The notes beneath the pieces are model-generated. The model was not told where the DNA came from. It was given only the letters and a program-made list of their open reading frames with translations, and made no database searches. A stretch of DNA of 64,000 bases from Nitrospira sp. (GTDB lineage: Bacteria; Nitrospirota; Nitrospiria; Nitrospirales; Nitrospiraceae): NCBI GenBank assembly GCA_005116955.1, contig SWDI01000005.1, positions 307,063 to 371,062 of the forward strand. The letters run 5' to 3'. Below, piece by piece: positions 2,289 through 33,940 of the stretch. The translations under genes were made by a program, and so were the position numbers. The first letter of the stretch is position 1. Every line of letters begins with the position of its first letter.

Positions 2289-3632
2289 TCAGCTCAACCG
2301 GACCGAAAGTGGGAATAGGGGCAGAGCTGTTGGACGGCTCTTCGTCTTCGAAGAGCCGGAAACTGCATCGACGGCCTTTAGTTTGAACCCAACCCCCTTG
2401 ATCGTCACCAGTCGACAGAGGCCGTCTGGATCACGCTGAAGATGGTGACGCAAGGCATGAACATGAACGTCTAGCGTGTGCTCGCCGATGGCAAAATCCG
2501 GGCCCCACACACGATCGACCAATTCGTGACGGCTGAACACTTTGGACGGCGCCTGCATGAGTGTCTGCAGAATCGCAAAAGGCTTCGAGGAAAGCTGAAC
2601 GGGCTGTCCCGCCACTCTCACTTCGTGAACGTCGGCATCTAGCTCCACCGATCCAAGCCGGTACAACCCACGGCGGGTCCCGTCATGTCCCATCCGTCGA
2701 AGATACGCGCCAACCTTGGCAGTAAAGAGGCGATGGCCATCGCGAAAATCGTGAATGCCGTCCGCCCCTCGGTCCAGATCTGACATAGACTGCTGCTCAC
2801 CGTACACACCGCCGCAGGGGACCACGATCATGAGTGGAACATGTCTCAGCGCAGGATTGGTGCGAAGGATGTCCCAATCGCTGATACGGTGATCGATGAG
2901 GAGCAGCGACGGCGAGGTATGGTCCGTGAGCAGCATCACCTCGTCCGTCGTTGATACGAGGCGAATTCCATAACCCACCCGATGCAAATGGTCTCGAATC
3001 GAAGCGGCAAATTCAACATCCATCGAAAGCACCGGAATGCAGATCGACATTCCCGCCGAACGTGGACTCGGTTGAGCATCACCTGCTGGTTCGGATGTAG
3101 CCACGCAGGACTGTTCACGGAGAAGCACGCCGAACAACCCGACCAACGCGGGAACAAACAACAGGGCGGACGACGGTGCAGGAGTAAGCGGGACCACCGG
3201 GGAAGTGCTGGCCAGATTAACTGCGCCAATAGGCAGTTGTATCGGACCGTAGCCCCATTGCTCTTGAAGAACAAGATTGAACGTAAATCGTCGCGCATCC
3301 TGTTCGATCTCAAACAAGGAGTTCCAGGTGACCGGCGTGAGGTCATGATGGGGAATCGTCAACGCGTGCACCAGATCGTTCGGCGAGGTGGACAACGACA
3401 GCAGCATTGACTCGCTTTCCCCCCTCAACCCGACACGATCATCAGACTCCCACAGATCGACATCGGCCGGAATGAGGATCGCGACCTGCCGATCGCCGGC
3501 CTGAAACAACACCGCAGCATCTGCCTCTCCGGCTATTCCTACGAGGCAGATCAATAGACTAGCGAGGAAGGGGAGCCCCCCCCAAAACGATCGCAGATCC
3601 GCTCGTAACCAGGCCTTCATCTTGTGTTGCAT
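2289..3632 (-). CDS. Membrane-spanning regulator: exported domain, PEP-CTERM-like anchor, receiver-like domain, OmpR-type winged helix
   Basis: With the ATG at 3632 (AAGGA ribosome site about 8 bases upstream) the product has 447 residues. Order: signal peptide 1-39 ending in EADA; exported domain 40-145 with no recognised family; a PEP-CTERM-like segment at 146-172 (VVPLTPAPSS, then a hydrophobic helix, then LRE); a receiver-like domain 195-312; a winged-helix OmpR/PhoB DNA-binding domain 324-420. The receiver keeps an Asp in LLLIDH but has HDF where the conserved Lys-Pro-Phe should be, so phosphorylation is doubtful. A GTG at 3728 gives 479 residues with an extra N-terminal hydrophobic segment. 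The gene follows a PEP-CTERM gene on the same strand and is probably co-transcribed. The likely role is transmembrane control of surface-protein or exopolysaccharide genes. Confidence 0.8.
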   Translation of the reverse strand: MQHKMKAWLRADLRSFWGGLPFLASLLICLVGIAGEADAAVLFQAGDRQVAILIPADVDLWESDDRVGLRGESESMLLSLSTSPNDLVHALTIPHHDLTPVTWNSLFEIEQDARRFTFNLVLQEQWGYGPIQLPIGAVNLASTSPVVPLTPAPSSALLFVPALVGLFGVLLREQSCVATSEPAGDAQPSPRSAGMSICIPVLSMDVEFAASIRDHLHRVGYGIRLVSTTDEVMLLTDHTSPSLLLIDHRISDWDILRTNPALRHVPLMIVVPCGGVYGEQQSMSDLDRGADGIHDFRDGHRLFTAKVGAYLRRMGHDGTRRGLYRLGSVELDADVHEVRVAGQPVQLSSKPFAILQTLMQAPSKVFSRHELVDRVWGPDFAIGEHTLDVHVHALRHHLQRDPDGLCRLVTIKGVGFKLKAVDAVSGSSKTKSRPTALPLFPLSVRLS

Positions 3633-3756: not shown

Positions 3757-4320
3757 TTAGGCCGAGGCCCCCATCATCTTGCGACGAGCCAAGCTCGCCA
3801 GGCCGATCACGCCGCTGCCGAACAGCCACGCTGCGGCAGGAAGTGGGACACCAGGACCACCAGCATTCGAACCCCAGAGGGTCAAGGTATAGCCTACTCC
3901 CGCTGGAACAAGCCCTGCTGGATGCAGGTGATAATCACGCGTAAGTCCAAGGTCAGCCAGCGCTAGTGCAGTGAACGTATCAGCGGCGCCTTGATACCCG
4001 CCAATCGTTACGGGAAGCTCAGAGTCACCATTGTTTTCAAAAATGGTGGAGCCAAAGGCAGTGATACCGGTGGCTACGGAGGTCATGTTGAAATGAGTGA
4101 ATGAACCCAAATCAAAATTGATCGTATCCAAGAAAATACCACTCCCTCCGGCGAGCCCCGGATCTGGGATATTAAGGACGACCGGGTTCGCCAGATCTCC
4201 GTTGCCTACCGCAAAGACCCCCGCATTGAGCGTGACGGCCTGCGCGGTTGGGCCCAAGGCTAAGGCGCTTGCAGCGAACAAGCCAGCTACGGCTAATTTC
4301 AACCTATGTGTGCGTATCAT
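3757..4320 (-). CDS. PEP-CTERM (VPLPA-type) surface protein
   Basis: The 187-residue product has a classic signal peptide (MIRTHRLKLAVAGLFAASAL, cleavage after AQA at about residue 28). A Gly/Ala/Thr-rich exported domain without a recognised family follows. The C-terminal tripartite sorting signal is VPLPAAAWLFGSG, a hydrophobic helix, then ARRK. Such tails are processed by exosortase, and xrtA lies 10 kb away on the same strand. The gene precedes the membrane regulator at 2289-3632 by only 28-124 bases, which suggests an operon. The substrate protein's own function is unknown. Confidence 0.85.
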   Translation of the reverse strand: MIRTHRLKLAVAGLFAASALALGPTAQAVTLNAGVFAVGNGDLANPVVLNIPDPGLAGGSGIFLDTINFDLGSFTHFNMTSVATGITAFGSTIFENNGDSELPVTIGGYQGAADTFTALALADLGLTRDYHLHPAGLVPAGVGYTLTLWGSNAGGPGVPLPAAAWLFGSGVIGLASLARRKMMGASA

Positions 4321-4431: not shown

Positions 4432-4472
4432 ATCTACCGACCAAAGCACCGGATGCTACCGTATGTGACAAT
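4432..4472 (-). promoter_or_regulatory. PEP-CTERM-gene upstream element, copy 1
   Basis: Read on the minus strand this contains TGTCACATACGGTAGCAT, then 17 bases later GTAGAT. It sits about 112 bases upstream of the PEP-CTERM start at 4320. It resembles the elements at 31710-31752 and 33897-33940, with one extra base in the centre. Confidence 0.45.
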
Positions 4473-4628
4473 AAAATCGTGTGCCGCACGAAACACTGTG
4501 CTTTCCGAATAATCTCCGCTGTCATTCTCATTCCTCAGGACCAGCACTCACTCATCAGTCGGAACCGTGCGCCAAGAAACGACTCCTAGTACCTCGCGAT
4601 GGTACCAAGAGAGGTCGAACGGCTACTA

Positions 4629-4666
4629 CTACCGGATACAACGGATGCTACAGATGTGACAGAAAA
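4629..4666 (-). promoter_or_regulatory. PEP-CTERM-gene upstream element, copy 2
   Basis: Read on the minus strand this contains TTTTCTGTCACATCTGTAGC followed by ATCCG and, after a short gap, GTAGTAG. It is a second, diverged copy of the block at 4432-4472, about 300 bases further from the gene. Confidence 0.4.
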
Positions 4667-4805: not shown

Positions 4806-6245
4806 CTATTTCGAATTGAAGAATCGCTGGGGTCGTTCGCCCCGAAACACGGATCCGTGCTTTTTTCGGTTTCCCCTAAAGAGAGAGTCCAGCCAGGACG
4901 AAGGAGCGGATCCAGCCTGAGTCTCGCTCTTCATCTGCGAACCATTGAGACGAGCGATTCGAGCCTCCACATCGCGATAGGAATGCCCCGGTTGCTGAAG
5001 CCGTCGATAGGTCTCGACCGCTTCGGCCATGTTCCCTGCCTCTTCGAACGTGCGACCCAGCATATATTGCAGTGCCGTTCGATCTTCGACTCTGGCCGAC
5101 GGCCGGTTGATGGCATTGTGGAACATACCGATCGCCTCTTTGTGTTGTCCGATGGCTTTCAAGCAGAGCCCTTTCTGAGCCAGCGCCTTCACGACCCATA
5201 GCTCCTGTTCGGCCAGCAGGTCGAGGAGGACGATGGCCCGGTCGTAGTTGCCGGTTTCTTTCAAGGCCACGGCTTGATGGTAAATGGACACAGGATCCTG
5301 CGCCTCAGGCAGAGGCTCGGATCGGCTCGCTCCCGGATTATCCACGTTCCGTGCTTGCCATGTTTCGACTTCAGCCCGTTCCTTTTCGAACTCGCTCGGA
5401 GACCACTCTACAGATTCCGGTGAGACTTTGAACGGAAATACACCATGACGGTCCCGAGCTGACGCAGTCTCCAGTACAATGCGGGCCGTCATGGCCTCGG
5501 TCTGAGCGGCAAATCCGTACACCAGCGCATGATCGCAGAGCTGATTGATCAGACGCGGCGTGCCGCCGGTCAGCCGGAACACCGAACGGCCTGCCAAGGT
5601 TGTAAACAGCGGCGCGCGTCTGCCTGCGACTTCCAACCGATGTATCATGTACCCCAGTGTTTCCTCTTCCGAGAGTGCGTCCAGCGTGTACTCGACACCG
5701 ATCCGTTGGGCGAATTGCACCATGCCCGGTCCCTTCAACAGATCCCGCAAACCCAGCTGCCCCGACAAGAGAATCTGTAACGATCGACGACGTCCGTCAT
5801 TGAGATTCGAGAGTAACCGAAGCTCTTCCAACATCGTGGCCCCGATATTTTGCGCTTCGTCGACCATCAGCAGCACCCGACGTCCGGCAGTTCGTTCACG
5901 TTCAAGAAATTTTGAAAACTCATGGAACGCGTCCACATCACTCTTGCCGGTAATCGACAGATCAAAGGAGGCGGCGATCCACGGCAGCAGCCCACCGATG
6001 CCGACATGCGTGTTCGACAACACGCCGACGGTCCAGGGATGGCGGGTCTCATCCAGCAACCGGTTCAACAATGTGGTTTTCCCCGTGCCGGGATCTCCGG
6101 CAATGACAATCAAGGCCGATCCGTTTGTCAGCCCATACTCTAAAAGGCTGAGCGCCATCTTGTGCTTGGCCCCCAAATAGAGGAATTCCGGATCCGGCAG
6201 CAACGTGAAGGGCTTCGTCTTCAATTGATAGTATGTTTCGTACAT
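4806..6245 (-). CDS. XrtA/PEP-CTERM-associated secretion ATPase with TPR tail
   Basis: The 479-residue product opens with 'MYETYYQLKTKPFTLLPDP', typical of ExeA/GspA-like AAA ATPases of the PEP-CTERM locus subfamily. Walker A is GDPGTGKTT (about residues 50-58) and Walker B is LLMVDEAQN (about 125-133). A region ending 'GTPRLINQLCDHAL' (about 228-241) is the sensor/lid part. Residues about 310-440 form several TPR-like helices (YHQAVALKETGNYDRAIVLL and similar), which is an addition to the usual ATPase. It is the last gene of exosortase operon 1, 5 bases after the kinase gene. It probably powers or gates export of the polysaccharide or its partner proteins at the inner membrane. Confidence 0.88.
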   Translation of the reverse strand: MYETYYQLKTKPFTLLPDPEFLYLGAKHKMALSLLEYGLTNGSALIVIAGDPGTGKTTLLNRLLDETRHPWTVGVLSNTHVGIGGLLPWIAASFDLSITGKSDVDAFHEFSKFLERERTAGRRVLLMVDEAQNIGATMLEELRLLSNLNDGRRRSLQILLSGQLGLRDLLKGPGMVQFAQRIGVEYTLDALSEEETLGYMIHRLEVAGRRAPLFTTLAGRSVFRLTGGTPRLINQLCDHALVYGFAAQTEAMTARIVLETASARDRHGVFPFKVSPESVEWSPSEFEKERAEVETWQARNVDNPGASRSEPLPEAQDPVSIYHQAVALKETGNYDRAIVLLDLLAEQELWVVKALAQKGLCLKAIGQHKEAIGMFHNAINRPSARVEDRTALQYMLGRTFEEAGNMAEAVETYRRLQQPGHSYRDVEARIARLNGSQMKSETQAGSAPSSWLDSLFRGNRKKHGSVFRGERPQRFFNSK

Positions 6246-6250
6246 GATTC

Positions 6251-7087
6251 CTACGCAGAGTGGCTGTGCAGCAAGCCCATCGCTCGCCGCTTGGTCAATT
6301 GCGTACGCCCCGATTTATTGAGAACACCCCCAAGAATGGGCACACTCCCCGCAATAGCCGCCACAGCCTGCTCCACCTCAACCGACGAGGTTCGGCTTTC
6401 TTCCACCACCAGCAACAGCGCATCGAGGTGCGGGCTGAACCCTAAGACGTCGGCGCGAGACAAAATCGGCGGCAGATCCAACACCACGAACCGAGATGGA
6501 TACCGATGCTTGAGCTCTTGGGCAAGCGCAGCCATTTTGGGAGACGCCAAGGCCTCCGTAGAGTTCTTGATCGAGCGCCCTCCCGGCAGAAAGACCAGCC
6601 GACCAACTCCGGGGTGAACCAGCAACGGCGCAAGCGGCACTTGGTCGAACAGATATTCCGTCAACCCCGGGGCCTGTTCCATTCCAAACAATCGGTGCAC
6701 GGCGGGGCGACCCATGTCAGCATCAACCAGTAACACTGTATGGGTGAGGTCCATGGCAAGGGCAAGAGAAAGATTCACCGATGTCAGCGTCTTTCCCTCG
6801 TGCGCGGTGGGACTGGATACCCCGAGCACATTCCACCCTTTTTGGCGAAATTGCTGCATCACCTGGGCTCGGAGTCGTTTATAGGCATCGACAAACGGTC
6901 CTTCCTCGTACCCGGTTATTAAGCGTTGGTCTCGCATCAGCTCTTCGGAGAGCGAGATTGCTCTGGTCGACGAGTAGATCAGAGGAGGTGCTTGGGTCAC
7001 CGAGTAGTCCTCGGGTCTGTGCGCGCCGGGACCGGCTGAGCCGGATTGCTGCTTCAATCGTTCCTGAGCTTGCTGGAGATATTCCAT
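6251..7087 (-). CDS. XrtA-associated CpsD/CapB-type tyrosine kinase-like ATPase
   Basis: The 278-residue product is a cytoplasmic P-loop ATPase of the bacterial tyrosine autokinase family that partners Wzz-type proteins. Walker A reads SSPTAHEGKTLTSVN (about residues 91-105), with Ala-His in place of the usual Gly pair. Walker A-prime is VLLVDADMGRP (about 116-126) and the Walker B strand is VVLDLPP. The C-terminus ends in HSHSA and lacks the tyrosine cluster that these kinases normally phosphorylate. The ATG at 7087 has GGAGG 8 bases upstream; a GTG at 7093 is the alternative. It follows the Wzz-like gene by 30 bases and should control polymer length or export. Confidence 0.87.
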   Translation of the reverse strand: MEYLQQAQERLKQQSGSAGPGAHRPEDYSVTQAPPLIYSSTRAISLSEELMRDQRLITGYEEGPFVDAYKRLRAQVMQQFRQKGWNVLGVSSPTAHEGKTLTSVNLSLALAMDLTHTVLLVDADMGRPAVHRLFGMEQAPGLTEYLFDQVPLAPLLVHPGVGRLVFLPGGRSIKNSTEALASPKMAALAQELKHRYPSRFVVLDLPPILSRADVLGFSPHLDALLLVVEESRTSSVEVEQAVAAIAGSVPILGGVLNKSGRTQLTKRRAMGLLHSHSA

Positions 7088-7117
7088 CAGCACTCCCTCC
7101 TCATCAATTCCTCATCA

Positions 7118-8902
7118 TCATCCGAGTTTTCGCCAAATGGCATACCACAAGACATCCAGAGGCATCCATGCCAGATGGACAATCACCGCACTACCCACCA
7201 GAATACCGAGTCCTGCAAAACCGACGACTGCCCGCCGGCGTCCGAGAGTCGCGAGTTCCCGTTCCGACGGAAGATAGGGGATCACGGCCAGGGGCACCCC
7301 CCGTAACACTCGGCCAAACTGTTCGGAGGTATGAATCGTCCGATCGACATTGTCCACGACCACACCAGTTCCGATCCCTCCCCCCACGGCAAGAAAGGTT
7401 CCGAGCAATAGAATCGCCAAACGATTGGGCCGTTCCGGTTTTTCCGGCAACTCCGGAGGGTTGATGAGTGAAAACCGTTCGCCCTTTCGCTGCACTTCCA
7501 ACTCCGCCGACACTTGAGCCTCCATCAGTCGGGACGTGATCTCTTGATGCTTGCGCATGGAATTCTCTCGATCTCTGAGCAGATCCATATAGTCTGGCTC
7601 GATGGTCGGCGTCATTTCTACTCGTTTCGCATACTCTGCCATCCGACGCTTGAGATCGATACGAGCCGACTCCAACGATCCCAACATGGCCTGAGTCGAC
7701 GCCAACTGAGATTGAATGTTGATGTAGGCAGGATTTTCCGGCCTCACTGCCGGAGGCGGTGCCGGACGACCCGCCGCAGCCTGCAGTTTCTGCTCCAGCG
7801 ACGTTGCAACTTCTTGGGCGCGAATTACATCGGGATGGGAGTCCTTCATACGCTCTCGGAGATCGGCCAGTGTGGCGCGCGTTGCCGTCAGCCGTTTCGA
7901 AAGTTCATCGCGTTCATCGATGCCGCCCGTTTCTTTTTCCAGCGAATCGATCTCTTGTTTGAGTTTGATGAAATCGGGATGATCGGGCAACATGTAGGCG
8001 GAGACACTGGCATACTGCGCGCGCAGCGCTTTCAGTCGTTCCCCTGTATCCAAGAGCCGGTCACCACCCGCAGTAATGATCGGCGTATGGGGCTTCAGCT
8101 GAGCCAACTCGCCTTCCAAATACGTTTTCTTCTCGCGCAGGCTTCGGATATCGCGATCAGCATCGAGCAGCTCTCGCTGCGTCTGATTCATCAGTTGCAT
8201 ATTCAACTGCATCAGCTCCGGCAGCGCCCCATCGGCCTTGTGCTTCACGGTGGCGAGCATGCCTTCCAGCTCCTGGATATGCTTGTCCAGATTCTCCGCT
8301 TCTCGCTTCAGAAAGGCGGTGGTTTCTTGCGCATGCCGTTCGCGGCTCTTCAAGTTTTCCGCCAGAAAGAGACTCGTCAATTCGCTGGCGACCTTTTGCG
8401 CGGACACCGGAGTTTCGCCATCATAGGCCAAGGTAAACGCGATGGTAGCCTGAGTCGGGTTCTGCGTCCGTTTATCGACCACCTTGACGTTCATCACATC
8501 GATCTGAATGTCCTTTGTAAATCGCTCCAGCACTTCCTCCGTTGGGCTCCGTTTTCGGAGCTTCTCATAAAGGCCATACTGTTCAACGATGCGCCAGAGC
8601 GTGGCTCGACTGAGAACTTGTTGCTTGATCGTCTCGATGCGCTGATCGGCATAGGTCGCGATCGCCGACCGAACCAGATCCGGGGGAATCTCTTGCTCCT
8701 CAATGAGAATCGTGGCAGTCGAGCGATAGACGGATGGAAGGAGAAATGCCAGCGCGGTACTCGCGGCCATGAGTGCCGCCCAGACCACCAGAATCACGGT
8801 TCGGCGCCGGCGCAAGAGAACCAGATAGTCCGGCAATGTCCGCGCACGCGCGGCTGCCCGTCCCTGCAATCTCTGATCTTGACTCATCGCGACACTGACC
8901 AT
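7118..8902 (-). CDS. XrtA-associated chain-length determinant (Wzz family)
   Basis: The 594-residue inner-membrane protein has a transmembrane helix at about 38-58 (TVILVVWAALMAASTALAF), a long periplasmic region rich in coiled coil (about 170-460, with repeated LREKKTYLEGEL-type heptads), and a second helix near 500-520 preceded by the Wzz proline-rich motif (NPPELPEKPERPNR). A further hydrophobic helix near 560-580 is unusual for simple Wzz proteins but known in the PEP-CTERM subfamily. It lacks a fused kinase domain, which is supplied by the next gene. The ATG at 8902 has a strong GGAGG and overlaps the upstream gene by 19 bases. An alternative ATG at 8887 would give an ATGA overlap. Confidence 0.9.
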   Translation of the reverse strand: MVSVAMSQDQRLQGRAAARARTLPDYLVLLRRRRTVILVVWAALMAASTALAFLLPSVYRSTATILIEEQEIPPDLVRSAIATYADQRIETIKQQVLSRATLWRIVEQYGLYEKLRKRSPTEEVLERFTKDIQIDVMNVKVVDKRTQNPTQATIAFTLAYDGETPVSAQKVASELTSLFLAENLKSRERHAQETTAFLKREAENLDKHIQELEGMLATVKHKADGALPELMQLNMQLMNQTQRELLDADRDIRSLREKKTYLEGELAQLKPHTPIITAGGDRLLDTGERLKALRAQYASVSAYMLPDHPDFIKLKQEIDSLEKETGGIDERDELSKRLTATRATLADLRERMKDSHPDVIRAQEVATSLEQKLQAAAGRPAPPPAVRPENPAYINIQSQLASTQAMLGSLESARIDLKRRMAEYAKRVEMTPTIEPDYMDLLRDRENSMRKHQEITSRLMEAQVSAELEVQRKGERFSLINPPELPEKPERPNRLAILLLGTFLAVGGGIGTGVVVDNVDRTIHTSEQFGRVLRGVPLAVIPYLPSERELATLGRRRAVVGFAGLGILVGSAVIVHLAWMPLDVLWYAIWRKLG

Positions 8903-10161
8903 TTATCGCCTCCGTACGTCAACATGATAAAAGTCGAATTTGAATTGTACCGTTGATCGAGATCATCCACGGCTCGTTCCGCATATGTATAGGACACGGC
9001 GACCGACCACCATTGGGCGAACTGCCACGAAAGCGTGGGACTGACGGAGAAAAACGTCGTACGGGGCAACGGCCGGCTGCCTTCCGTTGTGCTGAGCCCC
9101 GAGACAAAATAGAGCGCTCCGGAAACTGAGAGATTGATCGACTCGCTGATGCTGTGAGAAAGTGATCCGCCCACGCGGTCGGTTTGCAACAGACGGCCGA
9201 ACCCGCTGGGGTTAATTTCTCGGCTTCCGTCGATCTGAACCGTCGTCCGCTCGAATTGTTTTCGTAGAGACCCTCGATACACCCACACAACCTCTTCGCT
9301 GGTGAGCGTGCGGTCACGGCTTCTTCCGAGTAGAATCCCAAGAATCCCTGGTATGGCCGGCACATCCTGCGCCGAACTCACCAATCGACTTCCTCCTGAT
9401 ATCGATCCGATCAGCTGATTACCGAAATCGTGCACCCACGAACCTTGTGCCCCGTAATACGTCGATTCAAGTCCAACCGAAGGAATTCTGACCAAGTTGT
9501 ATTCACCCGTCAGACTCACTTCATCCAACTCCGTCAGGTGATAGGTCGGTCCGGCATTCACTCCATGAACTTGATAATTCGCAAATCCGAGTCGGCTGCC
9601 GTCCTGATACTGCGCGTCCATGAAGTGATACCCGCTCTTCCAGGACAACCGCTCGGTGATGCCAATCTTCCACGTCGGCATGGCCGTCCACATACTCCGT
9701 TGCGTAAAGCCCAGCACCAACCCGGTCCTTTGCAGTTCTCCAACTAACGTATTGTCACGGGTAAAGCCGCCATCGAACTCAAAGCTGTGTCGGTCCAAGC
9801 GATATGATGCCCTCAGCGGAAAATACAGGTTGGTGAGCTCTCTCTCATTGCTCCCATAATAGTGAATAAAATCCGCTCTGGTCTCTCCCTGAACTTCGAA
9901 GTTTTCCGTCGCTCCCTTGAACTTGAGATCCGGCGTAACCCAATGGCCAATCACTTCGTTGTTCCCACCACTCAACAGCAAATTACTGTTGTATACGCCC
10001 TTCACGCTCAACGACGGAGCCGCCGACCATTCGGCGGCGGTACCCACCCCGTTCCCAGCTCCCATGGTCAACACCGCCAGGCCCCACGTTCCGGCAAGGG
10101 CCCAAACCCATATTCGAGCCCGAGTACCCGTTGGCCTGTGAACCACAAAGGGACGATCCAT
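8884..10161 (-). CDS. XrtA-associated outer-membrane beta-barrel protein
   Basis: The 425-residue product has a signal peptide (to about residue 43, GTAAEW). It then shows many alternating amphipathic strands with aromatic girdles (for example FIHYYGSNERELTNLYFPL, and SYRLDRHSFEFDGGFTRDN), and ends in a beta-signal-like strand with WSVSR. This agrees with the uncharacterised barrel protein found in PEP-CTERM/exosortase loci, likely the outer-membrane channel or scaffold for the polysaccharide. It lies 4 bases after the Wza-like gene and overlaps the Wzz gene. Confidence 0.8.
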   Translation of the reverse strand: MDRPFVVHRPTGTRARIWVWALAGTWGLAVLTMGAGNGVGTAAEWSAAPSLSVKGVYNSNLLLSGGNNEVIGHWVTPDLKFKGATENFEVQGETRADFIHYYGSNERELTNLYFPLRASYRLDRHSFEFDGGFTRDNTLVGELQRTGLVLGFTQRSMWTAMPTWKIGITERLSWKSGYHFMDAQYQDGSRLGFANYQVHGVNAGPTYHLTELDEVSLTGEYNLVRIPSVGLESTYYGAQGSWVHDFGNQLIGSISGGSRLVSSAQDVPAIPGILGILLGRSRDRTLTSEEVVWVYRGSLRKQFERTTVQIDGSREINPSGFGRLLQTDRVGGSLSHSISESINLSVSGALYFVSGLSTTEGSRPLPRTTFFSVSPTLSWQFAQWWSVAVSYTYAERAVDDLDQRYNSNSTFIMLTYGGDKWSVSR

Positions 10162-10165
10162 TCCG

Positions 10166-10777
10166 TCACGGCACCATCACCACATCGCCGCGCTGCAGGA
10201 CGATGTTCTGGTGTAATTCTTTGCCCTTTCGGGCATCGCCGTAGCGGAAGGAAAAGACGAGCTCCTCACTGCCTTGCTGCCGACGGATGATCTTGATGTC
10301 GTTCTCCGCAGCATACGGAGTGAGCCCTCCGGCCATACTCAGTGCCTGCAGCACATCGGTATGATGCCCTGCCTGATACTCTCCCGGTTTAAGAACGCGT
10401 CCCAACACATAAATGCGATAACTCTGTACCTTGAGCACCGTGACCGTCACATTCGGTGTCGGAAGATATTTCATCAGGCGTTTCGTGATGTCCAAACGCA
10501 CATCCTCGGCCGTTCGCCCTGCGGCTATGACCTCTCCGATCAAGGGGAACGTGATCATCCCATCGGGTCGCACCACCATCTCTTGCGTCAATTGTTCATC
10601 CTTCCAGACCGCGACCTTAAGGACATCTTCCGGCCCAAGAAGATACGACGGTTCGGCACTGACCGGTTCCGATGCAAAGACAGCTTCCTGACTCAGAATC
10701 GACAGGCAGAGACTTGCGATCAATAGCACCAGCCCTTCCCACCAAAAGTTAGACTTTTCTTCTCGTGGCGTTTTCAT
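10166..10777 (-). CDS. Polysaccharide export protein, Wza/XrtA type
   Basis: The 203-residue product has a signal sequence or anchor (about residues 12-35). The polysaccharide-export domain begins YLLGPEDVLKVAVWKDEQLT, followed by the 'VRPDGMITFPLIGEV' motif and an SLBB-like region (YRIYVLGRVLKPGEY, then LQALSMAGGLTPYA). It is shorter than classical Wza (about 380 residues), as usual for the exosortase-locus version. The ATG at 10777 shares one base with the stop of the PrsT gene (TGATG) and has a GAGAGG site upstream. A longer ORF to 10819 lies inside prsT and is less likely. It would form the periplasmic or outer-membrane exit for the polymer. Confidence 0.88.
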   Translation of the reverse strand: MKTPREEKSNFWWEGLVLLIASLCLSILSQEAVFASEPVSAEPSYLLGPEDVLKVAVWKDEQLTQEMVVRPDGMITFPLIGEVIAAGRTAEDVRLDITKRLMKYLPTPNVTVTVLKVQSYRIYVLGRVLKPGEYQAGHHTDVLQALSMAGGLTPYAAENDIKIIRRQQGSEELVFSFRYGDARKGKELHQNIVLQRGDVVMVP

Positions 10778-13161
10778 CAGGAGACCTCTCCCAGCAACGT
10801 TTTCGCTGTATCGGTCCACTCAAACATGGTGCTGGACGCCAGCGCTTTCTTGAGATGTGTGACGGCTTCGGCACGCTGCCCGGCTTTGGCGTAAGCGGAG
10901 CCGAGGTGATAATTAAGAATCGGGTGTTCCGGAACCAGTGTCGTGGCCTTTTGGAGGATACGGACGGCATCGGCTCCGTGCCCCGACTTATAATAGGCCC
11001 AGCCCAGCGTGTCGAGGAGGTAGGGATTCGGCTTCTGCGACTCGAATCCACGACTCAACGCCAACGCACGCTCCAAGCTCTGCGGATCACCTTTGTGATC
11101 GACCAGGGCGACGGCAAGATTGTTCGCCGCCAGGAGCGATCCAGGAGCATGCTTCAGCACGGTCTCGTAGTGTGTAATGGCTTCATCATGACGACGTTGC
11201 GCCGTGAGGCTTAAGGCCAACATCAATCGTAGCTGCTCATGCTTGGGATTAACTTCCAGCCCCTTCAACAGCGCCGCATCGCCTTCAACCACCTGCTTTT
11301 GACCGAATCGAGCCCGCGCCAGGTGGACCCATGGAGTCGTCCATTTGGGATTGATACGAGTCGCAGCTTCAAAGTGTGGCACCGCTGACGCCGAATCTCC
11401 CTTCGTCAGCAGCAGTTCGCCGAGAAAGCCGTCGGCGTACGGATGGTCTGGGAACTTGGCCAACAGACCCTCTAAACGTTTCTGCGCATGCGCCGGCCGG
11501 CCACGTCGCATATCCAACTGCACCAGCGCCAGCAGCGGCTCAGGGGCCGTCGGATGTTGCTGAGCCGCCTTGGTATAGGCACTCTCCGCGGCATCCCACT
11601 GCTGCTGCCCGAGCGCGACGTGCCCCTCGGCCAAGCTGGCAAGCGCTTCGTTCGCCCCGGCTTTCCGCAACTGCTTCAAAGTATCCTGACTCTTACCCCA
11701 ATCTTTTTCCTTCAACTGCAACTGAAACTGCATGCCGAGCAGCGCCACATTGTTCGGGTCCTGAGCGATCAGCAGATCCAGTCGCTGTTTGGCCTCTTTA
11801 ATCTGGCCGGCTGCAGCATCCAATCCCACCAACAAAGTCTGTGCCTCTGCCATGGAAGGCTTCAAGGCAACCGCCCGATCCAGGCTCTCGCGAGCCAGCG
11901 ACTGCTCGCCGGTGAGCAGATAGGCTCTCGCCAGTAGCACATGCCCCTCCACTAATTCCGGCTGATCTTTCAGGATGGAGCGAAAGTCGAGAACGGCGTC
12001 TTGGCCCTTGCCACGCTTGAGCGCCATCTGTCCACGCAACATCAAGGCATCCGTGGAGCGGGGGTTCTCCTTCAAGACCGCCTCGATCTGTCGCTCGGCG
12101 TCTTCAGTCTTTCCAGCTCCCCAATCCATCCCTGCCAACTTCACCTGAGCTTCCGACGCTTCCGGCTTGCCGGCGAACTCTTTCTGAATGTCGCGATACA
12201 CGTCACGCGCCTGGTCGCCTCGCTTGGTCGATTCGTAGAGACGTCCGAGTGCGAACCACAGCTTCCCGGCATGCGGCAGCTCTTTCTTCGCTTGCTGCAG
12301 CGCCGCTTCAGCCTGCTCGATGCCGCGACGACGGGCAATATAGTCGACCTGCGCCATCCGTCGCTGTTCATCCTCCGGGTTCAATCGGATGGCCTCCTGC
12401 AGAATCGCTTCGGCCTTGTCGTACTGCTGCTGTTGGTCGTAAAAAGCAACTTGCCGCAGTCGGTGACTGAGGACCGTCGGTTCCAGTTTGGCGATCTGTT
12501 CAAACATCGACTCCGCATCCGCGATCTTCCCCAGCTTCATCGATGTGGTCGCCATGGCATCCAACAATTCGAGGTTGTTCGGGTTCGCGCCGAGCGCACG
12601 GCGCAGATGGGGCATCGCGTCTGCCGGACGTTGAGTCGAGGTGTACAGCGAAGCCATGAGAAGGACTGCATCGATTTCCGCCGGAGCGTCGGTGACGAGC
12701 TGTTCAGCCTGTTTCACGGCCCCGCTCAGGTTTCCCCCTAAGGCGACGATCGCAATTTTGATGGCCCGGGCCTGGACATGCTCCGGTCGGCTGGCCAGGA
12801 GCTGGTCCGCAAGTTTTCCCGCCTGTTCGAGCGCTCGAAACTCCAGATAGAATTTGGCCAACTTGATCATCGCCCGGTCATGCCCCGGGCTCAATTCGAT
12901 CACCTGTTGATAGGCTCCGGCGGCATTCCGGTAATTGCGCTCTTTCTCTTCCACTTGCGCATAGAGCAGGTACGCTTCGACATCCTTGGGATCGATTTGG
13001 AGCACATTCCTGAGCTCAACCCGTGCTTTCGCGTAATCTCCTTGCTGAAAATATTCCTGCGCTCGCAGGCGGTATTTCTCCTTGCGTTCTTCCGGCCCGC
13101 CGCAGGCGACGATGCCGCCCAACAGAAGTGCAACCACCCACAGCACCGCATATCGTTTCAT
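10777..13161 (-). CDS. prsT: XrtA/PEP-CTERM system TPR lipoprotein PrsT
   Basis: The product (794 residues from the ATG at 13161) has a lipoprotein signal ending GGIVAC. The rest is about twenty TPR-type helical repeats across the whole length, for example 'RAQEYFQQGDYAKARVELRN' near the N-terminus and 'AYYKSGHGADAVRILQKAT' near the end. Size and architecture match the PEP-CTERM TPR lipoprotein family. It is thought to be a periplasmic scaffold for polysaccharide assembly or export. A longer ORF to 13203 would overlap the WecA-like gene by 22 bases, but the hydrophobic signal starts at the chosen Met. Confidence 0.9.
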   Translation of the reverse strand: MKRYAVLWVVALLLGGIVACGGPEERKEKYRLRAQEYFQQGDYAKARVELRNVLQIDPKDVEAYLLYAQVEEKERNYRNAAGAYQQVIELSPGHDRAMIKLAKFYLEFRALEQAGKLADQLLASRPEHVQARAIKIAIVALGGNLSGAVKQAEQLVTDAPAEIDAVLLMASLYTSTQRPADAMPHLRRALGANPNNLELLDAMATTSMKLGKIADAESMFEQIAKLEPTVLSHRLRQVAFYDQQQQYDKAEAILQEAIRLNPEDEQRRMAQVDYIARRRGIEQAEAALQQAKKELPHAGKLWFALGRLYESTKRGDQARDVYRDIQKEFAGKPEASEAQVKLAGMDWGAGKTEDAERQIEAVLKENPRSTDALMLRGQMALKRGKGQDAVLDFRSILKDQPELVEGHVLLARAYLLTGEQSLARESLDRAVALKPSMAEAQTLLVGLDAAAGQIKEAKQRLDLLIAQDPNNVALLGMQFQLQLKEKDWGKSQDTLKQLRKAGANEALASLAEGHVALGQQQWDAAESAYTKAAQQHPTAPEPLLALVQLDMRRGRPAHAQKRLEGLLAKFPDHPYADGFLGELLLTKGDSASAVPHFEAATRINPKWTTPWVHLARARFGQKQVVEGDAALLKGLEVNPKHEQLRLMLALSLTAQRRHDEAITHYETVLKHAPGSLLAANNLAVALVDHKGDPQSLERALALSRGFESQKPNPYLLDTLGWAYYKSGHGADAVRILQKATTLVPEHPILNYHLGSAYAKAGQRAEAVTHLKKALASSTMFEWTDTAKTLLGEVS

Positions 13162-13181
13162 CACCTTGCCCCCTCCTCCCA

Positions 13182-14813
13182 TCATGGCCACCAGGCTCGC
13201 CACATCATCCCGGTCAATATCGCCAGGGACACCAGCCCCAGGCGCATGGCCGCCGATGCCCGAAGATACAACAGCAACTCAAACGCAAAGAACAACACGA
13301 CGGCTTTCGCCATGAGCGGACCGACAGACACATTGCCAATGGTCATCTCCGGCAAAAACGGCATGGCCACGGCCAACAATCCGATCAAGTGATCGAGCGG
13401 AGTGGTTTGAAATTGGCCGTCTCCCGCCCAGCGAATCGCGAGGAAGACCAACACAGCCAAGATCACCATCGCCATATTCGTAGGCGTCAGTAATGTCGTG
13501 ACGCCCGTACGCGGAAACGCCTCTCCGTAATACAGAAGACACATGGACCCGATGTAGAGCGCCGCACGCACCACCCACGCAATTGCGGAACGACTCACCA
13601 ATGACCCAATCACGACGAGCGCCAGACCGGCTGCAACCACTCCTCCATCAGAAGGAATTTCCTTTGGAGCCGTCACCGCCCAGGCCAGATAGCAAGGGAC
13701 GGTCACGTACAGGAGATTAAGCGGCCACTCACTTTTCGGCTGACTCTTGGACACGGTGTGTATGATCGCCCGAAGCGGCTGGGCCGACGGCGACGCACGA
13801 TGCGCCCCCATCCGTCCAGGCGGTTGGGCAAAAACGAACAGGACGGGGCCCGCACACGCAAGATACATCGCCAGGAGCACCGCATCGGACTGCCATCGCA
13901 GGAAATACGCGCAACTCACCATGAGACCATGCACAAGATAAATGGCCGTGACAGCCTGACCATGATTCAGGCCGAAGGACAGGAGTCGGTGATGAATATG
14001 GTTTCGATCGCCGACGAACGGTGACCGCCCTTCCAGCACCCGTTGCCCCATGACGCCGACCATATCGAGCAACGGAACACCCCAAATGAACAGGGCCAGC
14101 AGTGGACTATACGCCGCACGATGGGCATCGATCAGCATGAGCGCGGCAACGGCCAGATAGTAACCAAGAAATTGACTGCCTGCGTCGCCCATGAAAACAC
14201 GCGCAGGGTACGTGTTGAATCGAAGAAAACCCAGGAGGCCCCCGAGAATGGACACGATCAAGAGGATGAGCAGCGGCTCGTTGACCTGATAGGCAAGGCA
14301 GGCCAACCCGATGAAACTGATGAGCGACAACCCTCCGGCCAAACCATCCAGGCCATCGGACAGATTGACGGCATTGGTCACCGCGACGATGATGAGCAAA
14401 GTCAGCGGGAGCGCTACCACGGAGGGAAGCGTCAGCTCATCAAAAAATGGGAGTGAAGAGAAGTGGACTCCGGCGACGCCCATGGCCACCAAGGCAGCCA
14501 GCACTTGTCCGGCAAACTTCACGCGATAATGCAGATCGGCCCGATCGTCCCATATCCCGAAGAACAGGATGACGGCGCCACCCAGAAGGCTGGAAAGGAG
14601 AAACGAGTCTTTCGGAGCCCACACCAACACGGCGATGAACGTCGCAAAGGCAAAGGCAATTCCTCCCACCTTGGCCATGGGCTCACAATGCACATGCCGC
14701 TCTCGCGGTGAATCGATGAAGCTCAATCGGCTGGCCGACGTAGACAAAACCGGGATGAGCGCCATACAGATGACGAGAGATCCGATAAAGCTTAAGAACA
14801 ATGCCGAACTCAT
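13182..14813 (-). CDS. WecA/MraY-family polyprenyl-phosphate glycosyl-1-phosphate transferase with C-terminal membrane extension
   Basis: The 543-residue multi-pass membrane protein carries all signature motifs of the family: WDDRADL (about 88-94), NAVNLSDGLDGLAGG (about 146-160), VFMGDAGSQFLGY (about 210-222) and NHIHHRL (about 271-277). It should transfer a sugar-1-phosphate from a UDP-sugar to undecaprenyl phosphate, starting polymer synthesis on the cytoplasmic side. It is about 200 residues longer than ordinary WecA, with five or so extra hydrophobic helices at the C-terminus (about 360-540). It begins 12 bases after xrtA, with GAGGTG as ribosome site. Confidence 0.88.
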   Translation of the reverse strand: MSSALFLSFIGSLVICMALIPVLSTSASRLSFIDSPRERHVHCEPMAKVGGIAFAFATFIAVLVWAPKDSFLLSSLLGGAVILFFGIWDDRADLHYRVKFAGQVLAALVAMGVAGVHFSSLPFFDELTLPSVVALPLTLLIIVAVTNAVNLSDGLDGLAGGLSLISFIGLACLAYQVNEPLLILLIVSILGGLLGFLRFNTYPARVFMGDAGSQFLGYYLAVAALMLIDAHRAAYSPLLALFIWGVPLLDMVGVMGQRVLEGRSPFVGDRNHIHHRLLSFGLNHGQAVTAIYLVHGLMVSCAYFLRWQSDAVLLAMYLACAGPVLFVFAQPPGRMGAHRASPSAQPLRAIIHTVSKSQPKSEWPLNLLYVTVPCYLAWAVTAPKEIPSDGGVVAAGLALVVIGSLVSRSAIAWVVRAALYIGSMCLLYYGEAFPRTGVTTLLTPTNMAMVILAVLVFLAIRWAGDGQFQTTPLDHLIGLLAVAMPFLPEMTIGNVSVGPLMAKAVVLFFAFELLLYLRASAAMRLGLVSLAILTGMMWRAWWP

Positions 14814-14825
14814 ACTGCAAGCACC

Positions 14826-16463
14826 TCAATCAGGAACATACCGACCCAACAACGGCGTCACCAAGCCCGCCATCGCCTGGAGCCGTTCGTCGACGATCGC
14901 TTCGTTTTCTCCGGGATGCACCGACGAGGACAACCGTACGAGCGCTCCATCGGCGCGATGTCTGGTCAGGGAATCCCAAAAGAGGAAAAACTTCACCAGA
15001 TATTCGCTCGTAATCCAGCGGTCGCGCTGTTTGAACCAGTAATAGACGATCTGTTTATATCCATCTTTCTGCACGACGACGCGATTGATCTCCTGGCCAG
15101 GCCTGATCTCCGACACGTGATTCATCCGTGTCGGTTCAAAAGACGTGATTTCCCATCCGCCCCCCGGAATACATTGCTTCGGCGAATGCGACGAACGACC
15201 CTTCTTCGGAGAGAGATAGTAGGCAACGTAGACATTGACTGGGCGGCGATCGGCTGCCGTGTAATCCGCCATCACATAATCGTCCAGCGCCAACGCATCG
15301 AGGTACTGTCGCTCCATCGGAGAAGTGACTCCCATCCACCCTCCAAGCTGCAAAGGAAAGTCGACCAACTGTTGCCGACCGGGTGGAGGAGGAAACTCCT
15401 CGGGATTGATGGTGGGAGCAGCGACGACCGCCACAGCAAGCAATCCACCCGCGACGACCAGGGGTGAATAGGAAATTGCCGCAGCTGGTTGAGTGATGTT
15501 GGAGGCGATCGCACTGCCCGCAGCCGGCAGACCGATCAATTCGGCGAATGAACGGCGAGGTCCGCTCGAACCGACTCTCGCGAGAACCCACATTTCGCCA
15601 CACAGCAAGGCGAGACTTGCAACAAAGATAATCCACCCTTCGAAAAAGTGGGTAAACCCTTCGGCAGCGCCCTGCCCATAAAAGCCGACCAGCACACCAA
15701 TCGCAGCAATCCGAAAGCCGTTTAAGATAATTGAGATAGGAATGCTCGACAGTACGAGAACGACGCGCTTCCACAGCGATTCTCGGTAGAGATAGGCCAC
15801 GAGCAATGTCAAGGCCGTGAGTGGAAACAGATACCGAAGGCCGCTGCAAGCCTCGACTACTTGAAGTTGCGTCGGTCCAAGATCGATCACGTTTCCTTCC
15901 CGATAAGCTGTCACGCCGATCACGTGAAGAAAGCCAACACCCAAGGTCGATGACCACAGTTGAAGTTTGCTTGATAACTCGTATTGCAGAAAGACCGGTA
16001 GGGGAACGGCTGCGAGCAAATACAACAAAGGAAACGTGAGCTGACGAATGCCGGCCAAGCCGATCGCACAGCCCAGCAATCCGACGATCACCATCCAGAG
16101 CGAGAAATGTACGACCGCGTGCATGGCCGCAAACTGGCCGACCACGTACACGCACAGCCCGATCCCGACGATTGATAACCCCCACCATGAGCCGCGATGC
16201 TCAATGGCATGGAGTGTCGGCCACCGAAGCCAAATCATGTACAGTACGATCAACGGGATGAAGGGCCCGTGGCTGTTGTTGTCCTCCAACCATGACTCCC
16301 CCAAGAACCGCAGGCTGTCCGCGTAGAGATAGCCAAGGACCGTCATGATTGCGGCAAGGATCGCCCATTGCACCGAGGCGCTCTTCTGCCTCGACGAGTG
16401 AATCAAGGGTGGTCCGGAAGGGGAAGGCAACGACTGTCCTAACACCGTAGGTTGAGTACTCAT
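14826..16463 (-). CDS. xrtA: Exosortase A fused to EpsI domain
   Basis: The 545-residue membrane protein has an N-terminal exosortase domain with about eight helices. The catalytic residues are present: Cys206 in VVEACSGLRY, Arg251 in NGFRIAA and His272 in THFFEGW. This protease/transpeptidase recognises PEP-CTERM tails. The C-terminal half (about 330-530) is an EpsI domain (LGGWMG, then HSPKQCIPGGGWEI, then VYYWFKQRDRWI), as usual in XrtA. It heads operon 1 and is preceded by the conserved upstream signature at 16492-16560. The ribosome site is GAGGAG, 6 bases from ATG. The five PEP-CTERM proteins in the window are its likely substrates. Confidence 0.93.
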   Translation of the reverse strand: MSTQPTVLGQSLPSPSGPPLIHSSRQKSASVQWAILAAIMTVLGYLYADSLRFLGESWLEDNNSHGPFIPLIVLYMIWLRWPTLHAIEHRGSWWGLSIVGIGLCVYVVGQFAAMHAVVHFSLWMVIVGLLGCAIGLAGIRQLTFPLLYLLAAVPLPVFLQYELSSKLQLWSSTLGVGFLHVIGVTAYREGNVIDLGPTQLQVVEACSGLRYLFPLTALTLLVAYLYRESLWKRVVLVLSSIPISIILNGFRIAAIGVLVGFYGQGAAEGFTHFFEGWIIFVASLALLCGEMWVLARVGSSGPRRSFAELIGLPAAGSAIASNITQPAAAISYSPLVVAGGLLAVAVVAAPTINPEEFPPPPGRQQLVDFPLQLGGWMGVTSPMERQYLDALALDDYVMADYTAADRRPVNVYVAYYLSPKKGRSSHSPKQCIPGGGWEITSFEPTRMNHVSEIRPGQEINRVVVQKDGYKQIVYYWFKQRDRWITSEYLVKFFLFWDSLTRHRADGALVRLSSSVHPGENEAIVDERLQAMAGLVTPLLGRYVPD

Positions 16464-29041: not shown

Positions 29042-29242
29042 GCGTGAACAGCGACCGCTGGCGCACAGGGGTACCCACGACGGATTGACTCCGCAACTCC
29101 TGATTGGACGCACCTCTTCCCACTAACTCCCGCCGAAGCAGGGGCGGCGAAGGCTGTATTGTCGTGAGATCTGCTGCAGCCGCCGTTGTTGTTCGTTCAG
29201 GCAAGAGGCGACAAGACTTCCAAATTTCTTGACACATTAATG

Positions 29243-29270
29243 TGTTGCATCTGTTGCACTCAGTCTAGAC
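29243..29270 (+). promoter_or_regulatory. PEP-CTERM-gene upstream element
   Basis: The plus strand reads TGTTGCATCTGTTGCA, identical in its core to the elements before the PEP-CTERM genes at 30482-31507 and 32985-33758. The palindrome GTCTAGAC follows at 29263-29270. It lies about 100 bases before the start at 29363. Confidence 0.5.
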
Positions 29271-29362
29271 GATGCATCTTCATGTCCGCTATGCTCATGC
29301 CCTGATTGTAACAACCTGAGTCTCAAACAGGGATTCAGTCCGGTGACGAAAGGATGTGGAGC

Positions 29363-29962
29363 ATGAAATGGGACAGGTCGATTCTGGCGTGGGGGCTCTT
29401 CAGCGTCGGGGTGTTTCTCCAATCGCCTGCTCACGCGGTAACCGTGACGCATCTCGAGGTGACCAGAGGCGCCGTGAATTACGATGGACCGAACCAGGAC
29501 GCGCTCGATCGGCTGCTCGCGCAGGACGGCGTCATGCAGATGGGACGATTTCAAGGAGTCGGCGAACTTGTCCCGACGATCAACCGATCCAACGAGACCC
29601 ATGCGCTATTCACCTCCGGCTTCAGCGGGGCCTCGGCTCCGTCCGCCGTCATCACCGACTCCGTCATCACGGTCGACCTCTCCTCCCTGTTCTTCAGCGT
29701 GAATCAGGGCAATGCCTATCGACTGTGGAACATCGGCACCGTTGTCACCGGCCTCTACAATCCGACGTCGAAAGAGTTTGCGCTTTCATGGGATCGCGTC
29801 TTTGGTGAAAACTGTCAACAAGGACAAGCCTCGTTCTTCGTGAATGGACTGGTCCATTTCGACTCCGATGTGCAACCTGTCCCCATTCCCGCCGCCGTCT
29901 GGCTGTTCGGAAGCGGGTTGACCGGGATCGCCGCCCTGGTGCGCCGTCGGCGCTCTTGCTAG
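29363..29962 (+). CDS. PEP-CTERM (VPIPA-type) surface protein
   Basis: The 199-residue product has a signal peptide (to SPAHA, about residue 25) and a compact exported domain (VTVTHLEVTRGAVNYDGPNQ at its start) with no recognised family. The exosortase signal is VPIPAAVWLFGSG, a hydrophobic helix and a VRRRR cluster. An ATG three codons upstream (29354) exists, but AAGGA is spaced 8 bases from the ATG at 29363. It is transcribed away from operon 4. Confidence 0.85.
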   Translation: MKWDRSILAWGLFSVGVFLQSPAHAVTVTHLEVTRGAVNYDGPNQDALDRLLAQDGVMQMGRFQGVGELVPTINRSNETHALFTSGFSGASAPSAVITDSVITVDLSSLFFSVNQGNAYRLWNIGTVVTGLYNPTSKEFALSWDRVFGENCQQGQASFFVNGLVHFDSDVQPVPIPAAVWLFGSGLTGIAALVRRRRSC

Positions 29963-30481: not shown

Positions 30482-31507
30482 TTAGGCCTTCGCCGTCATC
30501 TTCCGGCGAGCCATGCCGGCCAAGCCGACGAGGCCGCTGCCGAACAGATAGACCGCCGCCGGCACCGGGACGGGGCTGACATTCCCGTTCACGTCCATGC
30601 TGATGAACATGTTCCGAGCCAAACGCAAGTTCGTATAGTCCGTGCCATACGCCGTACCATTGCAGGTCGTGGAGACGCCCGTGCAGCCGATCGGTGTACC
30701 GGCTTGCACCGCCGTAAAGAGCGAGCTCAGCGCATTCGAGTCGGCGCCGCCGATCACCAGCGAATAGGTACCGGGGCCGAGACTACCGGTCCAGGTAACC
30801 TGATTATCAAGGGTATCGCCGTTATGACCGTCTCCGACGGCAGTACCCGTGAAGGTGGCTGTGCTCACTTGACCATTGTTATTACCCATGGCGAAGTTGC
30901 CATCCGCTCGGTACACACCCCAATTGGCCCCCAGGGCATCGACCGCCCCACCGCCCTCAGCGGTGATTTCATCCATGGCGTCGAAGAAGGGCGACCAGGT
31001 GGCAAGGGCCGCCTGGCCTTGCAGATAGCCTCCATCACCAGGGGTGTTGGCGGCAGTTCCCACGATCGCCGCACTTTGCAAGGTCGTGATCTGGGCCGGG
31101 GTCAATCCATTAAGGTCACCCACTCCGTCGTGGGATGAGGCCGGCACCAGGCCGCTGAACAGGGAGAACCCCGGATTCAGCACCGATGCGCCGTTGCTGT
31201 TGGCCGTGCCGGTCACCGTGATGCTGACGGTGGACGCCGAGTCGAGGGTGAAGAACCGGAAACGGTTGTTATGGGTATCCGCCAGCGTATCGACCGCCCC
31301 GGTGCGATTGACGCCGTTGTTGCTCATGCCTGATATCCACCCCGCATTGCTGCTGGCGGTGGGGGTAAAGTTGTTCAGCGCGCCGAAGGTATTGGTAGAT
31401 TGATCGTAGAGCGAGCTACCGTACCCGACGTGCGCGGAGGCGACACCGGCCGCCAGCGTGAGAGCCAGGGCGGAGAGAGATCCGACTATGAGTGATTTGT
31501 TACGCAT
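30482..31507 (-). CDS. PEP-CTERM surface protein, AHVxY paralogue 1
   Basis: The 341-residue product has a signal peptide ending GVASA, so the mature protein should start HVGYG. Shared with its two neighbours are a 'DTHNNRFRFF' block (about 84-93) and 'NPGFSLFSGL' followed by SHDG (about 120-140). It ends VPVPAAVYLFGSGLVG, hydrophobic helix, ARRK. The start is the ATG at 31507 with AAGGAG 7 bases upstream (a TTG at 31513 is unlikely). It is anchored or released by exosortase; the function of the family is unknown. Confidence 0.87.
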   Translation of the reverse strand: MRNKSLIVGSLSALALTLAAGVASAHVGYGSSLYDQSTNTFGALNNFTPTASSNAGWISGMSNNGVNRTGAVDTLADTHNNRFRFFTLDSASTVSITVTGTANSNGASVLNPGFSLFSGLVPASSHDGVGDLNGLTPAQITTLQSAAIVGTAANTPGDGGYLQGQAALATWSPFFDAMDEITAEGGGAVDALGANWGVYRADGNFAMGNNNGQVSTATFTGTAVGDGHNGDTLDNQVTWTGSLGPGTYSLVIGGADSNALSSLFTAVQAGTPIGCTGVSTTCNGTAYGTDYTNLRLARNMFISMDVNGNVSPVPVPAAVYLFGSGLVGLAGMARRKMTAKA

Positions 31508-31709
31508 GCACAATCTCCTTGCTGTTTATGGTTGAGCACTTCTCTGGATTGCCTATAGATTAGGAACAGGCAAGACGGACCATCCTAGTACGATCGCGCA
31601 CCACTAGCGGCTTCACGATCTTTGTATTCCTCCTCTTCCTTGAACTAGGTTTACACCCGTCCCTCTCCAGCATATGGTCGCAATCGGTCTATCAAATGTT
31701 GACCGCGTG

Positions 31710-31752
31710 CTCTACAGACGCCTACCTACTTATGCAACAGATGCGACAGAAA
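31710..31752 (-). promoter_or_regulatory. PEP-CTERM-gene upstream element
   Basis: Minus strand: TTTCTGTCGCATCTGTTGCA, then 18 bases after GTTGC the word GTAGAG. It matches the block at 33897-33940 at most positions, including AAGT, GGTA and GCGTC between the two parts. It lies about 200 bases upstream of the start at 31507. Confidence 0.6.
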
Positions 31753-31950
31753 CTGCTCGCGGCTCGCGACTGTTCCCGCTCCACTCATCAACGGTAGCTT
31801 AGTTCGACGTCAGGAACGAACTGGCTGCACCTCACTGCCCTGATTGTGACGCGAGCATCGGGCGGGATGTGTCATCGGAATAGATCTACCGCAAAAGAAA
31901 TTGAACGATTGAAAAATGGCTGGATGTGGGGAGAGAGCCGTCTTAATAAG

Positions 31951-33896: not shown

Positions 33897-33940
33897 CTCT
33901 ACCGACGCATACCCACTTATGCAACAGATGCAACGGAAAC
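33897..33940 (-). promoter_or_regulatory. PEP-CTERM-gene upstream element
   Basis: Minus strand: TTTCCGTTGCATCTGTTGCA, then 18 bases after GTTGC the word GTAGAG, with the same intervening AAGT, GGTA and GCGTC words as the block at 31710-31752. It lies about 140 bases upstream of the start at 33758. Confidence 0.6.

Follow-up and report, generated by a model that had tools for sequence, protein, structure and literature searches.

The described proteins closest to the one reported here are the PEP-CTERM and VPLPA-CTERM substrates of exosortases (TIGR02595, TIGR03370, PF07589), with which it shares a plan of signal peptide, exported part, proline motif, hydrophobic helix, and positive residue. 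Known PEP-CTERM tails are about three residues long, and Haft (2006) suspected long-tailed ones to be non-functional (PMC1569441). The archaeosortase ArtA processes a tripartite signal that is not necessarily C-terminal (PMC9263693). In Proteobacteria, PEP-CTERM genes are under sigma-54 control by PrsK/PrsR, and PrsR was assigned to its motif, found in Proteobacteria only, by the same profile logic that we use below (PMC1569441). Outside this system, it is an open question how the production of exosortase-sorted proteins is matched to sorting and polysaccharide export. Among membrane-bound regulators, ToxR and CadC have an N-terminal cytoplasmic DNA-binding domain and a C-terminal periplasmic sensor (PMC5936718). 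Here, we analyze a window of 64,000 nucleotides (the whole stretch of Nitrospira sp. DNA under study) in which one gene appears to fuse an exosortase substrate with an OmpR-type regulator of atypical form. We propose, with a probability of roughly 0.5, that its product controls the PEP-CTERM regulon as a membrane-tethered one-component protein whose anchor is the sorting signal itself.

Relative to PEP-CTERM substrates, the signal of the regulator lies mid-protein and is followed by about 270 predicted-cytoplasmic residues that include a DNA-binding domain, and the window copy is degenerate. Like the VPLPA-CTERM substrates found with XrtD (TIGR04152), the regulator adjoins XrtD, and a homologous helix is present in its relatives. 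The ArtA substrate HVO_0405 likewise carries a tripartite sorting signal for which a C-terminal position is not required (PMC9263693). In common with ToxR and CadC, the regulator has one membrane helix, an OmpR-type winged helix predicted to lie inside, and no phosphorelay (PMC5936718). However, its order is inverted, with the DNA-binding domain C-terminal and the exported part N-terminal, and it is therefore not a member of the ToxR/CadC family; it also adds a pseudo-receiver, and its anchor resembles a sorting signal. To our knowledge, HVO_0405 is not a DNA-binding regulator. OmpR/PhoB response regulators, including phosphorylation-independent orphan receivers such as 2hqr, have the same cytoplasmic fold and domain order, but in the regulator the phosphorylation machinery is lost except for Asp247 and an exported, membrane-anchored front half is joined on. 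Finally, the PrsK/PrsR system is likewise devoted to controlling PEP-CTERM genes and acts through a DNA motif common to their upstream regions, whereas here the motif differs and a single tethered protein would be involved; no PrsR or PrsK equivalog scored over cut-off in the window's own genome, and no sigma-54 -24/-12 motif rose above chance near the regulator gene. Within the literature covered, a search returned no paper on a PEP-CTERM-bearing or exosortase-signal-carrying regulator.

The regulator and its neighborhood

The regulator gene and the segments of its product are as follows.

2289..3632, minus strand: putative PEP-CTERM-anchored OmpR-type regulator, 447 aa plus stop (ORF, RSF5 start, regional dN/dS)
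3516..3632, minus strand: predicted signal peptide, residues 1-39, AxA-type cleavage ADA|AV (hydropathy; AxA spotted by eye)
3195..3515, minus strand: predicted exported part, residues 40-146 (about 107 residues), no family match (alignment, AlphaFold low confidence)
3114..3185, minus strand: PEP-CTERM-like helix, residues 150-173, TPAPSSALLFVPALVGLFGVLLRE (PSSM 14.5 bits, column permutation)
2685..3044, minus strand: degenerate receiver, residues 197-316 (family alignment, fold match)
2373..2666, minus strand: OmpR/PhoB-type winged helix, residues 323-420 (PF00486, pLDDT, 1gxp match)

The original prediction described one open frame with an exosortase-substrate front and a DNA-binding rear, and its position, its single 447-residue frame, and its layout were all confirmed. 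Translation starts at ATG 3632, with AAGGAA just 5' of it; a longer upstream start (GTG 3728) is closed in the RSF5 orthologue. Hydropathy gives just two hydrophobic segments, residues 16-34 and 153-171. Sigma-70 and terminator scans around the gene returned nothing above chance. The tail of the window copy (2289-2370) is shorter than that of RSF5 (447 vs 502 aa), which fits a frameshift in the tail.

The rear half agrees with the predicted receiver-like domain and OmpR-type winged helix. Residues 342-418 match PF00486 at 1.4e-19, and AlphaFold with Foldseek assigns residues ~197-420 to the OmpR/PhoB response regulator fold; the cytoplasmic half matches MtrA (2gwr) at TMt 0.81, and the winged helix, where pLDDT is mostly 70-89, matches the PhoB effector domain (1gxp) at TMt 0.87. 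In the receiver, all 35 family rows have lost the acidic pair, Ser/Thr, and Lys but keep Asp247. AlphaFold confidence is low for residues 1-195, and we therefore make no claim on the fold of the exported part.

Relatives and 175 genomes of the family Nitrospiraceae were searched, and about 28 copies of the same layout were found in 27 Nitrospiraceae genomes from three genera, with loci near-identical to the window in the Nitrospira MAGs RSF5 and RSF1. Among 396 genomes of the phylum, no member of the regulator family turned up outside Nitrospiraceae at E<=1e-60. Because all carriers belong to one family, counts over them are not independent. The following neighbors define the locus.

3757..4320, minus strand: VPLPA-CTERM exported protein, 187 aa, conserved partner (TIGR03370, 27.2 bits, cut-off 25.35)
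4806..14813, minus strand: exosortase-linked exopolysaccharide genes, comprising ATPase, tyrosine kinase, chain length, outer-membrane, export, PrsT, and sugar-phosphate transferase genes (family matches)
14826..16463, minus strand: exosortase XrtD with EpsI domain; Cys206, Arg251, and His272 conserved (TIGR04152, 531.6 bits, cut-off 400)

The co-directional PEP-CTERM gene that had been noted upstream is thus the VPLPA-CTERM gene 3757-4320, at a distance of 124 bases. In carriers, the usual order is exosortase/exopolysaccharide genes, a VPLPA-CTERM gene homologous to 3757-4320, and then the regulator, which usually follows the VPLPA-CTERM gene directly and often ends the cluster. The exosortase had been taken for XrtA; this assignment is ruled out by the TIGR04152 match (531.6 bits against a cut-off of 400), which identifies the VPLPA-CTERM-specific XrtD. 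A second XrtD gene lies elsewhere in the same genome (G000:C2:422775-424250). In a second setting (L066, L067, L074, L075, L112, L113, L116, L126), a PEP-CTERM gene and a ~780-aa gene precede the regulator, either tethered or soluble, and a putative CbiX-like gene follows.

An exosortase is present in 25 of the 27 carrier genomes, in line with the expectation that orthologues keep company with one; the two exceptions, G165 (94% complete) and G150 (83% complete), hold 6 and 22 VPLPA-CTERM genes, respectively, so that an assembly gap is likelier than true absence. Exosortases occur in 112 of the 175 genomes, and since they are common in the family anyway, their co-occurrence with the regulator (Fisher p = 4e-4, ignoring kinship) is weak evidence. 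The proposed link to the exosortase/PEP-CTERM system is backed by synteny and by the PEP-CTERM-specific DNA element described below.

One RSF1-like genome (G019) has a broken copy. The first ~90 codons are replaced by unrelated sequence and the remainder lies away from the cluster (L061:8546-9865, L160), a split that reflects a rearrangement or misjoin after about codon 90.

A PEP-CTERM-like helix with a replaceable exported part

On sequence grounds, the regulator helix is a PEP-CTERM derivative, a claim limited for the degenerate window copy by the absence of a model match. Two helix types occur in the family: VPLPA-CTERM proper in 11 rows (for example VPIPAAVVLFGSGLCGIVGIVVRRQ) and a "PSS" form in 17, including the window copy. 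With a local PSSM, canonical VPLPA-type members score 24-44 bits, and the window helix, at 14.5 bits, exceeds every non-PEP-CTERM-related protein of the loci (best 11.5). When 15 distinct PSS rows are set against the local VPLPA-CTERM proteins, the shared columns are P in 15/15, L in 14/15, F in 15/15, G in 15/15, and G in 13/15. PSS helices thus share the invariant VPLPA-CTERM columns (p = 5e-5; core only, p = 6.5e-4) by column permutation, which was used in place of per-sequence shuffling, whose p-values are biased by the choice of the segment scored. The helix is under purifying selection, with dN/dS of 0.06-0.28 in five pairs.

The original reading of this segment as a PEP-CTERM helix is borne out far better by relatives than by the window copy, which matches no curated NCBIfam PEP-CTERM model at E<=0.1. 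In that copy, neither the V-P-L of VPLPA nor a basic tail is present (LLREQSC), and 274 residues follow the helix, which places the signal away from the C terminus. Among relatives, G171 reaches 19.4 bits against PF07589 (cut-off 20.7) and G009 reaches 12.8 bits against TIGR03370 (cut-off 25.35), both below cut-off. The helix is present in all close homologues, and its absence is confined to two derived branches of soluble paralogues; in a tree of the cytoplasmic half, both losses lie inside the tethered branch.

The exported part is under purifying selection (dN/dS 0.08-0.72), but alignment shows that it is not conserved between clades, and that of the window clade resembles none of the local proteins. 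A natural domain swap is apparent in two relatives. G180 and G190 each have a stand-alone PEP-CTERM gene (224 and 216 aa, respectively) just before a regulator with its own PSS helix, while in G165 and G171 the product of this gene is matched by regulator residues 1-213 at 67-79% identity. The join point falls inside the PEP-CTERM helix, and the two helices are therefore interchangeable. In the cytoplasmic-half tree, G165/G171 group with G180/G190 within the PSS rows at moderate support (81/76). In G135, the front half aligns with a different PEP-CTERM protein over 155 residues, at 70%. That the architecture is kept while the exported part is replaced fits the role of a sorting signal or anchor rather than that of one sensor domain.

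A direct-repeat element upstream of VPLPA-CTERM genes

Alignment of promoters of the gene before the regulator revealed a block, TTTTCTTGTCACATCTGTAGCATCCGTTGTATCC..GGTAG, of imperfect 9-base direct repeats. The element, apparently undescribed before, occurs in the window at the following positions.

4619..4666, minus strand: element copy 1, TTTTCTGTCACATCTGTAGCATCCGTTGTATCCGGTAGTAGTAGCCGT (34.5 bits, conserved in orthologous promoters)
4432..4476, minus strand: element copy 2, with a one-base spacing change, closer to the 187-aa gene (conserved in all aligned promoters)
31732..31753, minus strand: element upstream of VPLPA-CTERM gene 30482-31513 (31.3 bits)
33919..33940, minus strand: element upstream of VPLPA-CTERM gene 32985-33758 (27.1 bits)
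29238..29259, plus strand: weaker element upstream of VPLPA-CTERM gene 29354-29962 (20.0 bits)

With one mismatch allowed, a 19-base core has 14 sites in the window's own genome and 0 in the reversed control. Nine of the 14, counted by eye, lie within ~350 bases upstream of same-strand VPLPA-CTERM genes, where ~0.016 would be expected (21 genes, 400 bases each); six of these nine belong to one PEP-CTERM cluster (G000:C2:690-714 kb; L150, L151). The element also precedes most VPLPA-CTERM genes in carrier genomes. Two further sites in the same genome precede a di-haem cytochrome c peroxidase gene, and the element stands upstream of this gene (MauG/CCP type) in two genomes (L150:12327-14429, L156:4307-6346), which suggests a non-PEP-CTERM member of the regulon.

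Across the 175 genomes, 21 of the 25 in which the regulator stands next to a 187-aa homologue have at least two sites, as do 3 of the remaining 150 (Fisher 3e-20, ignoring kinship). The number of VPLPA-CTERM genes is a confounder, and we therefore restricted the comparison to genomes with at least four; the element is present in 23/24 carriers there, compared with 5/17 others (p = 9e-6). G126 (21 VPLPA-CTERM genes) and G025 (11), in which the regulator occurs in the second setting only, lack the element. It thus follows the regulator, not the exosortase or PEP-CTERM number alone, and this distribution points to the tethered regulator as its predicted reader. Among the exceptions, the element is present and the regulator was not detected in G157 (99% complete) or in the incomplete genomes G046 and G173, and G147 has the regulator with a weak site only. 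A strong element (26.5 bits) precedes a TonB-dependent receptor gene in G098 (L162:4593-6932), a genome without a tethered regulator, and similar single sites occur in other genomes of the same genus.

Proposed mechanism and alternative readings

In the proposed mechanism, the signal peptide would send the front part across the inner membrane, and the PEP-CTERM-like helix would stop transfer and span the membrane, keeping the receiver and winged helix on the cytoplasmic side (N-out/C-in). The receiver, judging from its lost phosphorylation residues, would act independently of a kinase and probably serve dimerisation. We hold export, anchoring, and the kinase-independent receiver together to be very probable from sequence features. 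In front of VPLPA-CTERM genes, the winged helix would then bind GTNGCATC-like repeats arranged in tandem, among them those in the promoter of the gene that immediately precedes the regulator, and so feed back on sorted proteins; phylogenetic profile and position make this step likely. Because the anchor itself would be a sorting signal, XrtD could engage or cut it, and the activity of the regulator would then reflect the load on, or the availability of, the sorting machinery. This step is the least certain, and we offer the sorting sensor tentatively, at somewhat less than even odds. With a shade less confidence still, we suggest that competition for XrtD, or cutting by it, sets regulator activity and that the resulting loop keeps the supply of sorted proteins in step with sorting capacity. 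In the window clade, the weakened motif could represent a version that binds without being cut efficiently, or a mere tether.

The novel step, sensing by exosortase, is plausible and still a prediction. With a sorting signal built into a likely regulator, a control link between sorting and genes becomes directly testable through regulator size with and without exosortase. If true, this would be an exosortase-type signal carrying a large cytoplasmic payload. The element adds a case of PEP-CTERM-specific control from beyond the Proteobacteria. Such surface proteins matter in the flocs and biofilms of water treatment, in which Nitrospira live.

It is possible, if doubtful, that the helix was recruited as a membrane anchor only, that exosortase plays no part, and that the envelope is sensed via the exported part of the regulator or the membrane state. 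In favor of such a plain tether, neither V-P-L nor the basic tail survives in the window clade, no PEP-CTERM model recognizes the helix there, and the exported part is under selection in the G000-RSF5 and G000-G032 comparisons. Against it, the positions that stay invariant or almost so in the degenerate helices are precisely those of PEP-CTERM (P, L-F, G, G), 11 members retain canonical motifs, and the exported parts differ between clades and thus provide no shared sensor domain. Constant cutting by exosortase or another intramembrane protease, yielding an exported protein and a freed regulator without any sensing, would suit G165, G171, and G135, in which a complete PEP-CTERM protein forms the front half. 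This we judge improbable, since the exported part of most members is short and unlike any PEP-CTERM protein, so that an exported product is not the conserved thing.

A different question is whether the tethered regulator reads the element at all. A small HTH_17 (excisionase/MerR-like) protein encoded at 1320-1568 on the minus strand is a possible alternative reader. HTH_17-like proteins recur, by eye, near loci L062, L065, and L071, and G157 has the element without the regulator. Moreover, OmpR-type sites usually repeat every 10-11 bases, and the 9-base period of the element would be unusual for such proteins. Nevertheless, we consider it unlikely that this protein or an alternative sigma factor is the reader and that the tethered regulator has other targets, as the element profile over 175 genomes closely fits the regulator, which itself lies downstream of a gene that starts at the element. 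The odd layout could, taken alone, speak for two genes read as one through an ORF or assembly artefact; however, the frame is open in 27 genomes, dN/dS stays below 1 over the junction, and the start is conserved, which makes that explanation scarcely credible.

Beyond the tethered regulator, anchor-less soluble paralogues also exist, and the anchor is therefore dispensable in some settings. At L027 (G003 C74), a copy beside the 187-aa homologue has lost the part from signal peptide to helix, in what looks like an in-frame deletion that left a soluble regulator. Many Nitrospira without a tethered regulator encode a soluble ~240-aa relative at the same XrtD/exopolysaccharide locus (L076-L079 and others), a possible ancestor of the fused form.
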